Below, piece by piece: positions 22,710-24,680 of a stretch of 64,000 nucleotides of DNA. The translations under genes were made by a program, and so were the position numbers. This stretch comes from Nocardia sp. BMG51109 (lineage in GTDB: Bacteria; Actinomycetota; Actinomycetes; Mycobacteriales; Mycobacteriaceae). Under the pieces are notes generated by a model. The model was not told the DNA's origin. It worked only from the letters and a program-made list of their open reading frames with translations, and did not search any database. The stretch is taken from contig NZ_JAFQ01000004.1 in the NCBI RefSeq assembly GCF_000526215.1, positions 1,488,001 through 1,552,000 on the forward strand. The letters run 5' to 3'. Every line of letters starts with the position of its first letter. Position 1 is the stretch's first letter.

Positions 22710-22786
22710 GTGGCCCGGCCACCTGCGTCGTGCCGCTCGCCGACCCGAATTTCCGACCCCGGGTCCAATTCCTCCGCCGAAGCAGG

Positions 22787-22792
22787 TAAACT
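22787..22792 (+). promoter_or_regulatory. -10 box for a leaderless cysteine leader
   Basis: TAAACT (TANNNT) lies exactly 7 nt upstream of the GTG at 22800, the spacing that places transcription start on the first base of the start codon. No convincing -35 element is seen. Confidence 0.6.
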
Positions 22793-22799
22793 GCTAGTC

Positions 22800-22886
22800 G
22801 TGCAAACCCGCCGCGAGCTGATGCTCACCCGTCGCCGCACAGTCGATCTGTGCCGCCTCGGCGGTTGTTGCTGCCTGTGCGTGTAG
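22800..22886 (+). CDS. Poly-cysteine leader peptide, 28 aa (cysteine attenuator)
   Basis: Short ORF GTG...TAG whose C-terminal end reads DLCRLGGCCCLCV: five cysteines in the last eleven codons (codons 18, 23, 24, 25 and 27). It probably starts leaderless (TAAACT 7 nt upstream). An intrinsic terminator begins immediately at the stop codon, and the genes downstream are DUF4395, a thiosulfate sulfurtransferase and SseC. In mycobacteria, polycysteine leaderless short ORFs act as cysteine-responsive attenuators of sulfur operons, so this ORF probably senses charged tRNA-Cys: stalling at the Cys codons would favour read-through. The layout is seen in the sequence; the mechanism is inferred by family. 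Confidence 0.88.
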   Translation: MQTRRELMLTRRRTVDLCRLGGCCCLCV

Positions 22887-22926
22887 CCGGTCGGCCTTTC
22901 GTTTCCCCCTGACGCCGACCGGTTTT
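22887..22926 (+). terminator. Attenuator terminator of the cysA2 operon
   Basis: Perfect 9-bp stem CCGGTCGGC / GCCGACCGG (22887-22895 and 22914-22922) followed by TTTT. It starts directly after the leader stop codon and ends 83 nt before the DUF4395 start, so transcription must pass it to express the operon. Confidence 0.85.
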
Positions 22927-23009
22927 CCCACCGTGTGTTGATCTCGTGATCCCCCCGGTGATCTGACAATCCCTGACAGATAGCCATTCGCAGCGCAGGA
23001 GCTCGTCCG

Positions 23010-23516
23010 ATGCCCCACAACAACCCCGCGACCGGCACCGTGCCCGCCCCGGATCGGGTGGACGTGCGCGGTCCCCGCGTCGCCGCCTGGATCACCACCG
23101 GCGTCCTCGTGCTGGTGCTGATCACCGCGTCCTTCGCCACTCCGGTGGCGGCCGTGCTGATCGCCCTGCAGGCGGTCGTCTTCGCCCTGGGCGCGCTCTA
23201 CGGTCCGCGGCGCAGCCCGTACGGCCGGGTGTACGCCCGGTTCGTCGCCCCGCGTCTCGGCTCCGCCCCCGACACCGAGCCCGTCCCGCCGCTGCGGTTC
23301 GCACAGTTGGTGGGCGGGGTGTTCGCCGTGCTGAGCTTTCTCGGGTTCGTCGCCGGCAGTACCGTCGCCGGCGCGATCTTCGCCGGCTTCGCGCTGTTCG
23401 CGGCGTTCCTCAACGCGGCCTTCGGCATCTGCCTGGGCTGCCTGCTGTACCCATTCGTCCAGCGGCTGATCCACCGGTCGGCCGCATCCTCCGACGCCCC
23501 CGCCCCATCCCGGTAA
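23010..23516 (+). CDS. DUF4395 membrane protein
   Basis: A 168-aa integral membrane protein with about four hydrophobic segments (AAWITTGVLVLVLITASFA; AAVLIALQAVVFALGALYG; VGGVFAVLSFLGFVAG; AIFAGFALFAAFLNAAFGICLGCLL). The sequence GICLGCLLYP in the last helix carries a CXXC pair that is a hallmark of DUF4395. Start at ATG 23010 with CAGGAGCT upstream. First structural gene after the cysteine attenuator and 20 nt before cysA2; an envelope sulfur or thiol role is suggested by context only. Confidence 0.85.
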   Translation: MPHNNPATGTVPAPDRVDVRGPRVAAWITTGVLVLVLITASFATPVAAVLIALQAVVFALGALYGPRRSPYGRVYARFVAPRLGSAPDTEPVPPLRFAQLVGGVFAVLSFLGFVAGSTVAGAIFAGFALFAAFLNAAFGICLGCLLYPFVQRLIHRSAASSDAPAPSR

Positions 23517-23536
23517 GTCACATCGAAAGGAACAAC

Positions 23537-24370
23537 ATGGCTCGCTCCGATGTCCTGGTCTCCGCAGACTGGGTCGAAGAGAACCTCAACACCCCCGGCG
23601 TCGTCATCGTCGAGGTCGACGAGGACACCTCCGCCTACGACACGGGCCACATCGAGGGTGCCGTGAAGCTCGACTGGAAGAAGGATCTGCAGGATCCGGT
23701 GCGGCGTGACTTCGTCAACCGGGAGCAGTTCTCCGACCTGCTGTCGGCGCGCGGTATCGGCAACGACGACACCGTGGTCCTCTACGGCGGCAACAACAAC
23801 TGGTTCGCGGCCTACGCGTACTGGTACTTCAAGCTGTACGGCCACCAGAACGTCAAGCTGCTCGACGGCGGCCGCAAGAAGTGGGAGCTCGACGGCCGCC
23901 CGCTGTCGACCGAGGCCGTGTCCCGCCCGGGCACCTCCTACAAGGCCGGCGAGCAGGACCTGTCCATCCGCGCCTTCCGCGACGACGCCATCCAGGCCAT
24001 CGGCACCAAGAACCTGGTCGACGTGCGCTCGCCCGACGAGTTCTCCGGCAAGATCCTGGCGCCGGCGCACCTGCCGCAGGAGCAGAGCCAGAAGCCCGGC
24101 CACATCCCCGGCGCCATCAACGTCCCGTGGTCCAAGGCCGCGAACGAGGACGGCACCTTCAAGTCGAACGAAGAGCTGGCGGCCCTGTACAAGGATGCCG
24201 GCCTGGACGGCGAGAAGGAGACCATCGCCTACTGCCGCATCGGCGAGCGTTCCTCGCACACCTGGTTCGTGCTGAAGGAACTGCTGGGCCACCAGAACGT
24301 CAAGAACTACGACGGGAGCTGGACCGAATACGGCTCCCTCGTCGGTGCACCGATCGAGTTGGGAGCATAG
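23537..24370 (+). CDS. cysA2: Thiosulfate sulfurtransferase (rhodanese, CysA2/SseA type)
   Basis: Two rhodanese domains, 277 aa. The N-terminal inactive domain begins RSDVLVSADWVEENL and contains GHIEGAVKLDWKKDLQDPV. The C-terminal active domain carries LVDVRSPDEFSGKI, GHIPGAINVPWSKA and the catalytic loop YCRIGERSSHTWFVL, where Cys is the persulfide-forming residue. It transfers sulfane sulfur from thiosulfate to an acceptor thiol. GAAAGGA precedes the start. Followed 4 nt later by sseC, the invariant partner in mycolata; the whole unit lies behind the poly-Cys leader. Confidence 0.96.
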   Translation: MARSDVLVSADWVEENLNTPGVVIVEVDEDTSAYDTGHIEGAVKLDWKKDLQDPVRRDFVNREQFSDLLSARGIGNDDTVVLYGGNNNWFAAYAYWYFKLYGHQNVKLLDGGRKKWELDGRPLSTEAVSRPGTSYKAGEQDLSIRAFRDDAIQAIGTKNLVDVRSPDEFSGKILAPAHLPQEQSQKPGHIPGAINVPWSKAANEDGTFKSNEELAALYKDAGLDGEKETIAYCRIGERSSHTWFVLKELLGHQNVKNYDGSWTEYGSLVGAPIELGA

Positions 24371-24374
24371 AACC

Positions 24375-24680
24375 ATGTGCGCAGCACCTACCCAGGGTCA
24401 GGCCATACCGGCCAACGTCGATACCGAGAAGGAAACCGTCCTGACCGGACGCGTGCTGGACGCCGACGGCAATCCCGTCGGTGGCGCGTTCGTCCGGCTG
24501 CTGGATTCCGGTGACGAGTTCACCGCCGAGGTGGTGGCCTCCGGCACCGGCGATTTCCGCTTCTTCGCCGCGCCGGGCGACTGGACCATCCGCGCGCTGT
24601 CGTCGGCCGGCAACGGCTCGGCGCCGGTGCGGCCGGAGGGCGCCGGCATCCACAACGTGGATGTCCAGGTCGCCAAGTAG
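24375..24680 (+). CDS. sseC: SseC-like protein (DUF1416)
   Basis: A 101-aa beta-rich protein beginning MCAAPTQGQAIPANVDTEKE, with the Greek-key-like TVLTGRVLDADGNPVGGAFVRLLDSGDEFTAEV and DFRFFAAPGDWTIRAL. DUF1416 proteins almost always follow CysA2-type rhodaneses and are assumed to be sulfur-transfer partners; Cys2 could be a persulfide acceptor but this is inference. Start codon 4 nt after the cysA2 stop. Ends the operon before a strong terminator. Confidence 0.92.
   Translation: MCAAPTQGQAIPANVDTEKETVLTGRVLDADGNPVGGAFVRLLDSGDEFTAEVVASGTGDFRFFAAPGDWTIRALSSAGNGSAPVRPEGAGIHNVDVQVAK

Follow-up and report, generated by a model that had tools for sequence, protein, structure and literature searches.

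How could a short open reading frame (ORF) rich in cysteine codons govern the genes DUF4395-cysA2-sseC that follow it in Nocardia sp. BMG51109? The question is raised by positions 22787 to 24680 on the plus strand of a stretch of 64,000 nucleotides (contig NZ_JAFQ01000004.1, positions 1,488,001 to 1,552,000), which is referred to here as the window and whose numbering is used unless a contig is named. A sequence-only reading of this locus had described a leaderless polycysteine attenuator with a hairpin followed by TTTT, and had suggested looking for a competing antiterminator. The present analysis favors, with a probability of about 0.7, a cysteine-responsive ribosome-mediated translation attenuator, the counterpart of the mycobacterial Ms5788A type by position and peptide.

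Under this proposal, transcription would begin at the GTG of the leader ORF. With ample Cys-tRNA the ribosome would clear the leader ORF, and the codons Cys24-Cys25-Leu26-Cys27 would pair with GCGCAGGAG, hiding the Shine-Dalgarno sequence of DUF4395. With scarce Cys-tRNA the ribosome would wait on the Cys codons and cover the anti-Shine-Dalgarno strand, and DUF4395-cysA2-sseC would be translated. Since the Cys codons would be both read by the ribosome and paired with the Shine-Dalgarno, one codon stretch would be sensor and switch at once; the Leu26 codon within the Cys run would supply the CCUG of the anti-Shine-Dalgarno. The three genes are presumably co-transcribed, and the response to cysteine would presumably benefit sulfur transfer.

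The leader and its conservation

The leader ORF VQTRRELMLTRRRTVDLCRLGGCCCLCV (22800..22886, +) has 28 codons between the GTG at 22800-22802 and the TAG at 22884-22886, and a -10 element of the form TANNNT, TAAACT (22787..22792, +), stands 7 nt before it. Its peptide ends in CRLGGCCCLCV, with five Cys (C18, C23, C24, C25, and C27) in the final 11 codons. All of this had been placed correctly by the sequence-only reading. From the spacing of the -10 element, a leaderless transcript start at 22800 is predicted. An upstream GTG at 22710 would extend the open frame to 58 codons; the leaders of relatives, however, begin at the position of 22800. A scan of the window for TANNNT followed after 6-7 nt by ATG or GTG and an ORF of 10-45 codons gave two candidates, and the leader ORF alone carried at least four Cys in its last 11 codons; among 346 such candidates in 60 first-order Markov windows, none did.

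The 28-residue peptide matches NCBIfam NF042934 (cis_reg_atten, putative leader peptide) with 28.0 bits against a cut-off of 27, although the score falls below that cut-off when taken from the 58-codon frame (24.7) or from the genome search (25.9). Against NF042933 (leader_Ms5788A, Ms5788A family Cys-rich leader peptide) it reaches 35.2 bits, and 33.5 in the genome search, with a cut-off of 45. Hence the leader is not filed as an NF042933 equivalog, and the correspondence rests on the peptide and on the position, as it is the first ORF before DUF4395-cysA2, like the leaders of the Ms5788A type.

Loci were collected with CysA2 as the query, comprising the best 80 of the named loci listed and 118 Nocardia genomes, of which 110 were read (G007, G015, G029, G032, G060, G085, G104, and G116 were left out); some of the named and the other Nocardia genomes may overlap in these counts. 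The same layout was sought in the Nocardia genomes, and the leader was present in 110 of the 110 read. Altogether 189 of 190 loci carry it, the exception (L073) having no DNA upstream of cysA2. The pattern search recovered it in 186 of the 190 loci; L033, L141, and L147 were pattern misses that do carry the leader, also with TANNNT 6-7 nt before the start. In each of the 135 Nocardia loci the ORF has 28 codons and its start follows TANNNT, at a distance of 7 nt in 107 loci and of 6 nt in 28; exactly five Cys fall within the last 11 codons in 134 of them. All Mycobacterium, Gordonia (3), Williamsia (1), and Rhodococcus (1) loci with upstream DNA carry the leader, and an in-frame ATG or GTG with TANNNT 6-7 nt upstream is found in 51 of 51 loci outside Nocardia.

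The Nocardia peptide is near-constant (ELMLTRRRTVDLCRLGGCCCLC). The mycobacterial version ends in ..LTKRRAVDLCRVAGCCCCCCSC, those of Gordonia and Williamsia read ..LLTRRRAIDFCR..TCCCR, and those of Geodermatophilus, Actinokineospora, and Saccharothrix have fewer Cys. At E <=0.001, NF042933 has matches in 128 of 150 genomes across the order (36 above the cut-off; 48 of 55 genera) and in none of 14 control genomes, and NF042934 matches 50 of 60 genomes of the class, all counted wherever they lie in the genome and whatever their position relative to cysA2. Some of the order-wide NF042933 matches contain an in-frame TGA, where the model probably extends beyond an earlier stop.

Predicted fold and the Shine-Dalgarno helix

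Consensus folds were computed for 114 unique Nocardia leaders from the 135 loci (L153 was dropped because no start was found, and L141 and L147 were not included), of which 72 stand in alignment A1. The mycobacterial set holds 41 leaders from 42 (L056 was dropped; two are labelled as actinomycete metagenome-assembled genomes), of which 39 stand in alignment A2 (L040 and L058 left out). RNAalifold predicted the same elements from the 114 leaders and from A1: a hairpin domain within the ORF, two stem-loops named H1 and H2, and a long-range helix GCUGCCUGUGC:GCGCAGGAG. The putative sensor, Cys23-Cys24-Cys25-Leu26-Cys27 (22866..22880, +), is marked out by consensus folds, pairing counts, and near-fixed codons; its 3' part, from Cys24 to Cys27 (22870-22880, +), is the predicted anti-Shine-Dalgarno strand GCUGCCUGUGC. 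The predicted partner GCGCAGGAG (22993..23001, +) consists of GCGC and the Shine-Dalgarno AGGAG of DUF4395 (22997-23001). With H1 and H2 enclosed between these strands, the predicted form is a three-way junction. The leader RNA of the window folds at z = -3.75.

H1 (22887..22922, +) directly follows the leader stop; its arms CCGGTCGGC (22887-22895) and GCCGACCGG (22914-22922) form a perfect 9-bp stem with an 18-nt loop, followed by TTTT at 22923-22926, as had been noticed from the sequence. It is conserved and shows compensated changes, with three pairs carrying double changes. H2 (22929..22960, +) is an alignment helix that joins CACCG (22929-22933) with CGGTG (22956-22960), and its most variable pair is GC in 48, AU in 14, GU in 6, and unpaired in 4 leaders of the 72. 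The in-ORF hairpin GCACAG/CUGUGC of codons 13-18 (22837..22853, +) lies within a helix of 7 pairs with 99.8% of cells paired and no double change.

The complementarity between the Cys tract and the Shine-Dalgarno region is conserved. Over all 39 predicted pairs of A1, 98.5% of cells are paired, against 30-47% in slid versions; for the Shine-Dalgarno helix alone the figures are 99.0% in 72 Nocardia leaders and 24-66%. Nine pairs of A1 carry double changes, whereas shuffles give 3.2 and none of 500 reached nine; related sequences can, however, exceed shuffles. The double changes are confined to H1, H2, and the 5' domain. When the 41 mycobacterial leaders were folded separately with RNAalifold, the same topology was predicted in other sequence, GCAACAGGAG with CUGUUGU; in 39 of them 90.7% of cells of the equivalent helix are paired, against 36-70% when slid, and its covariation score was reached by 4 of 500 shuffles. 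In two helix pairs both partners differ from one genus to the other (G-C versus U-A and C-G versus G-C), the correspondence being assigned by distance from the Shine-Dalgarno core. Within the 40 nt that precede DUF4395 or cysA2, the mycobacterial loci L041, L053, L062, and L069 retain the GCAACAGG block despite a start-adjacent AGGAG 8-10 nt further downstream.

The codons of the tract are near-fixed among the 114 leaders (Cys23 TGT in 113, Cys24 TGC in 114, Cys25 TGC in 111, Leu26 CTG in 113, and Cys27 TGC in 110); the codon of Cys18 is split between TGC (63) and TGT (51). In a partition-function model, mean Shine-Dalgarno accessibility over the 114 Nocardia leaders was 0.17 without a ribosome; a ribosome waiting at Cys23 raised it to 0.34, one at Cys25 to 0.36, and one at Cys27 to 0.26. 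It was 0.12 and 0.20 with the ribosome further upstream and 0.21 with the ribosome at the stop. The window itself gave 0.22 without a ribosome, 0.41, 0.44, and 0.38 at the same three codons, 0.22 and 0.23 further upstream, and 0.17 at the stop. The modelled shift is about twofold and has the direction expected for a translation attenuator.

Several results weigh against translation attenuation. No double change occurs in the Nocardia Shine-Dalgarno helix and none of its measures exceeds the shuffles; because it is near-invariant, it lends no covariation support. Slid versions are at a disadvantage, since the structures were obtained from the very sequences on which they were scored. In the mycobacterial helix two cells changed on both sides, a number equalled in 136 of 500 shuffles, and the complementary block is partly lost in several mycobacteria (L043, L060, L067, and L075). 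Codons outside the helix are also near-fixed (n=114: Gly22 GGT in 111, Leu20 CTC in 112, Leu17 CTG in 114, and Arg13 CGC in 113), which lowers confidence in the translation attenuator. Random synonymous leaders with 85% G or C at third codon positions equal the real ones in the strength of their pairing with the Shine-Dalgarno (mean -16.5 versus -16.3 kcal/mol); leaders recoded with uniform codons reach a mean of -12.8 kcal/mol, and mycobacterial tracts pair more weakly than both recoded sets. Synonymous recoding was therefore rejected as proof of selection on the helix, the control being neutral. Exchange of tracts between the genera weakens the pairing of Nocardia tracts by 2.8 kcal/mol, but that of mycobacterial tracts by 0.7 kcal/mol only. 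Accessibility roughly doubles at best, and it rises less in mycobacteria (from 0.26 to 0.31-0.33), where a ribosome at the stop also gives 0.31. In addition, the modelled probability of the pairing between the Shine-Dalgarno and the Cys tract is 0.45 in this window against a genus mean of 0.59. Masking of the downstream ribosome-binding site by the leader RNA is thus a prediction from consensus folds and pairing counts, with weak covariation and a neutral codon-shuffle control.

Alternative explanations

Transcription attenuation, in which H1 and its TTTT act as an intrinsic terminator that a stalled ribosome prevents from forming, is unlikely. This strain has a perfect GC-rich 9-bp stem followed by UUUU, the H1 structure is conserved, and a ribosome at the last Cys codon or at the stop would cover the 5' arm of H1; over the 83 of 114 leaders that were scorable by arm search, the mean modelled H1 probability is 0.94 without a ribosome, 0.46 at Cys27, and 0.00 at the stop. 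However, H1 persists with the ribosome at Cys23 or Cys25 (0.91 and 0.98), and because the full block comes from a ribosome at the stop, the sign is wrong for a terminator relieved by starvation. At least four consecutive U within 8 nt after the 3' arm occur in 6 of 111 unique Nocardia leaders, this strain included (the 3' arm was located in 111 of 114, not in L160, L177, and L199). The antiterminator that the sequence-only reading had imagined in competition with the 22887-22895 arm did not emerge, as the arm has no alternative partner in the consensus folds of 114 and 72 leaders, in a search for antiterminators that was not exhaustive. H1 as a genus-wide terminator was rejected on the unconserved U-run and its persistence under the modelled stall; a terminator effect specific to this strain may exist. 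Of the attenuator as first described, the poly-Cys leader with leaderless spacing is retained, and the hairpin-plus-TTTT terminator with its antiterminator is given up. A terminator scan, which was blind to H1 since its loop limit was 8 against the 18-nt loop of H1, listed one weak site within the leader ORF (22851-22863, +; a 5-bp stem followed by GTTGTTGCTG), with 0.2 expected by chance.

Rho could replace the intrinsic terminator, since a finishing ribosome would expose the 123-nt spacer between the leader stop and the DUF4395 start to Rho and a stalled one would not, possibly together with translation attenuation. Such a model was put forward for mycobacterial cys leaders in 2005 (PMC1262725, in the part available), and untranslated RNA behind a hidden Shine-Dalgarno would be a plausible Rho target. 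The model would not, however, require a conserved pairing of the Shine-Dalgarno, and the same part of that paper has its authors calling their Rho prediction weak, so that this explanation appears quite improbable. Somewhat less probable still is a leader that does not sense cysteine and whose main role is to supply a functional peptide or to deliver ribosomes by coupling. The peptide, a small one, is indeed kept outside the Cys run: in 114 leaders neither Val15 nor Asp16 is ever replaced, while all four Val codons and both Asp codons occur. Against this, the 123-nt gap in this window is long for coupling, the Cys codons are clustered at the leader stop, and M. smegmatis leaders of the same kind are described as cysteine-responsive in the available parts of papers that cite Canestrari 2020 (PMC13236596; PMC9031893).

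In the RRxVDLCR core, Val15 and Asp16 vary at synonymous positions only, even though these two codons are largely located in the loop of the hairpin within the ORF. Because this core is kept as amino acids while some of its codons drift, and because the wider motif recurs, at least in part in leaders with few Cys, the peptide itself might form part of the sensor, acting in the ribosomal tunnel to tune arrest on the next codons and reading more than the supply of Cys-tRNA; this seems rather improbable. The 6-bp hairpin of codons 13-18 is also predicted in mycobacteria, and Thr14 is encoded by ACA or ACG only, matching the paired U.

Downstream genes, other leaders and known systems

The first full gene of the operon encodes a DUF4395 membrane protein (23010..23516, +; 168 aa; PF14340, 145.9 bits). 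It is followed by a rhodanese, a CysA2-type sulfurtransferase (23537..24370, +; 277 aa; PF00581 in two stretches) which we take to be CysA2, and by an SseC-like DUF1416 protein (24375..24680, +; 101 aa; PF07210), presumably SseC. A thioredoxin-fold protein is encoded directly upstream of the leader locus. The gene order given by the sequence-only reading thus agrees with the domain matches, with the names CysA2 and SseC taken on assumption. The same reading had pointed to DUF4395 in the operon, but this is not a distinguishing feature: PF14340 is encoded at the same place in 5 of 5 scanned loci outside Nocardia (two mycobacterial, Rhodococcus, Geodermatophilus, and Actinokineospora), and since mycobacterial operons have DUF4395 too, it is no novelty of the Nocardia operon. 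In 8 of the 51 loci outside Nocardia (three Gordonia, Williamsia, and four mycobacterial or metagenome-assembled), no ORF of at least 120 codons lies between leader and cysA2, so the leader there precedes cysA2 without a full DUF4395. Two Gordonia loci (L027 and L037) have a perfect palindrome GTCGCTGATCAGCGAC at the leader stop, with the leader before cysA2 and without DUF4395.

The same genome holds two more leaders of this kind, both on the minus strand of contig 4. One (MTGLGVRLVARRHVDFKRVCSASCLPECLR; ~4650340-4650430; L133) precedes nirA and cysH and matches NF042936 with 48.9 bits against a cut-off of 45; no TANNNT was seen 6-7 nt before its ATG. The other (VNLFALVQRRHVDLQRVASAACL; ~5660310-5660385; L132) has one Cys, scores 37.5 bits with NF042934, and shows TAGCGT 7 nt before its GTG. 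An SCO4226-like gene comes next, and ABC-transporter as well as NMT1-like genes are found beyond it; the stretch between the SCO4226-like and the ABC-transporter genes gave no Pfam match at the coordinates scanned. In the class-wide search, genomes G301 and G318 had 10 and 11 NF042934 matches at E <=0.001, and leaders of this type may therefore make up large regulons.

The element is of a known kind: a description of the leader in front of mycobacterial cysA2 dates from 2015, and an NCBIfam model exists. In 2005, mycobacterial cys operons had already been noted to follow leaders that contain runs of Cys codons and lack a conserved terminator, with the mode of regulation left open (PMC1262725); Nocardia farcinica was among the genomes downloaded there, and no Cys leader is named for it in the portion of the text available. 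According to the accessible part of Shell 2015 (PMC4633059), a Cys-clustered leaderless ORF precedes cysA2/Msmeg_5788 in M. tuberculosis and M. smegmatis and is conserved in mycobacteria, and cysteine attenuation was put forward for it as speculation. The likeness to such ORFs that the sequence-only reading had drawn is supported. Canestrari 2020 is cited for cysteine-dependent attenuation in M. smegmatis in the available parts of PMC9031893, PMC9094748, and PMC13236596, the last of which speaks of translation attenuation. A search on leaderless cysteine upstream ORFs in Nocardia showed no description of a cysteine leader from this genus in the records as available, and searches on DUF4395 with cysteine, on Streptomyces sulfate-assimilation leaders, and on Ms5788A found no paper. 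Rfam has no family for the leader, with one chance match at E 0.84. Ms5788A was reportedly among the leaders tested by Canestrari in 2020.

Attenuators of the trp and ilvB type have a leader peptide rich in the amino acid that regulates them. The Nocardia leader shares this trait with them (for ilvB1 of M. tuberculosis, see the part available of PMC13236596) and differs in that neither a conserved terminator U-run, though a U-run is present in this strain, nor a stall-dependent antiterminator was seen, the latter in the consensus folds. The probable mechanism hence shifts from transcription to translation, and the findings argue against taking the neat stop-proximal hairpin for a genus-wide terminator. 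With the NF042934 class the leader shares the core RRxVDLxR followed by a short tail, although Cys is scarce in some members, such as the third leader of the same genome. The second leader of this genome matches the Ms4527A type (NF042936), which stands before nirA in the available part of Shell 2015 and serves another operon with another tail. The closest relative is the leader of the Ms5788A type (Shell 2015, in part), with which the Nocardia leader has in common a Cys-rich ORF, predicted to be leaderless in Nocardia, directly before DUF4395-cysA2 (DUF4395 being found here in other mycobacteria), a peptide of the form L..RRxVDLCR followed by a Cys run, and the predicted masking of the Shine-Dalgarno by Cys codons. 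It is distinguished by the CCCLC tract in place of a longer Cys run, by another pairing sequence, by a regular stop-proximal H1, and by an NF042933 score below the cut-off. The published mycobacterial cysteine leaders are thereby extended to the genus Nocardia with a concrete predicted structure.

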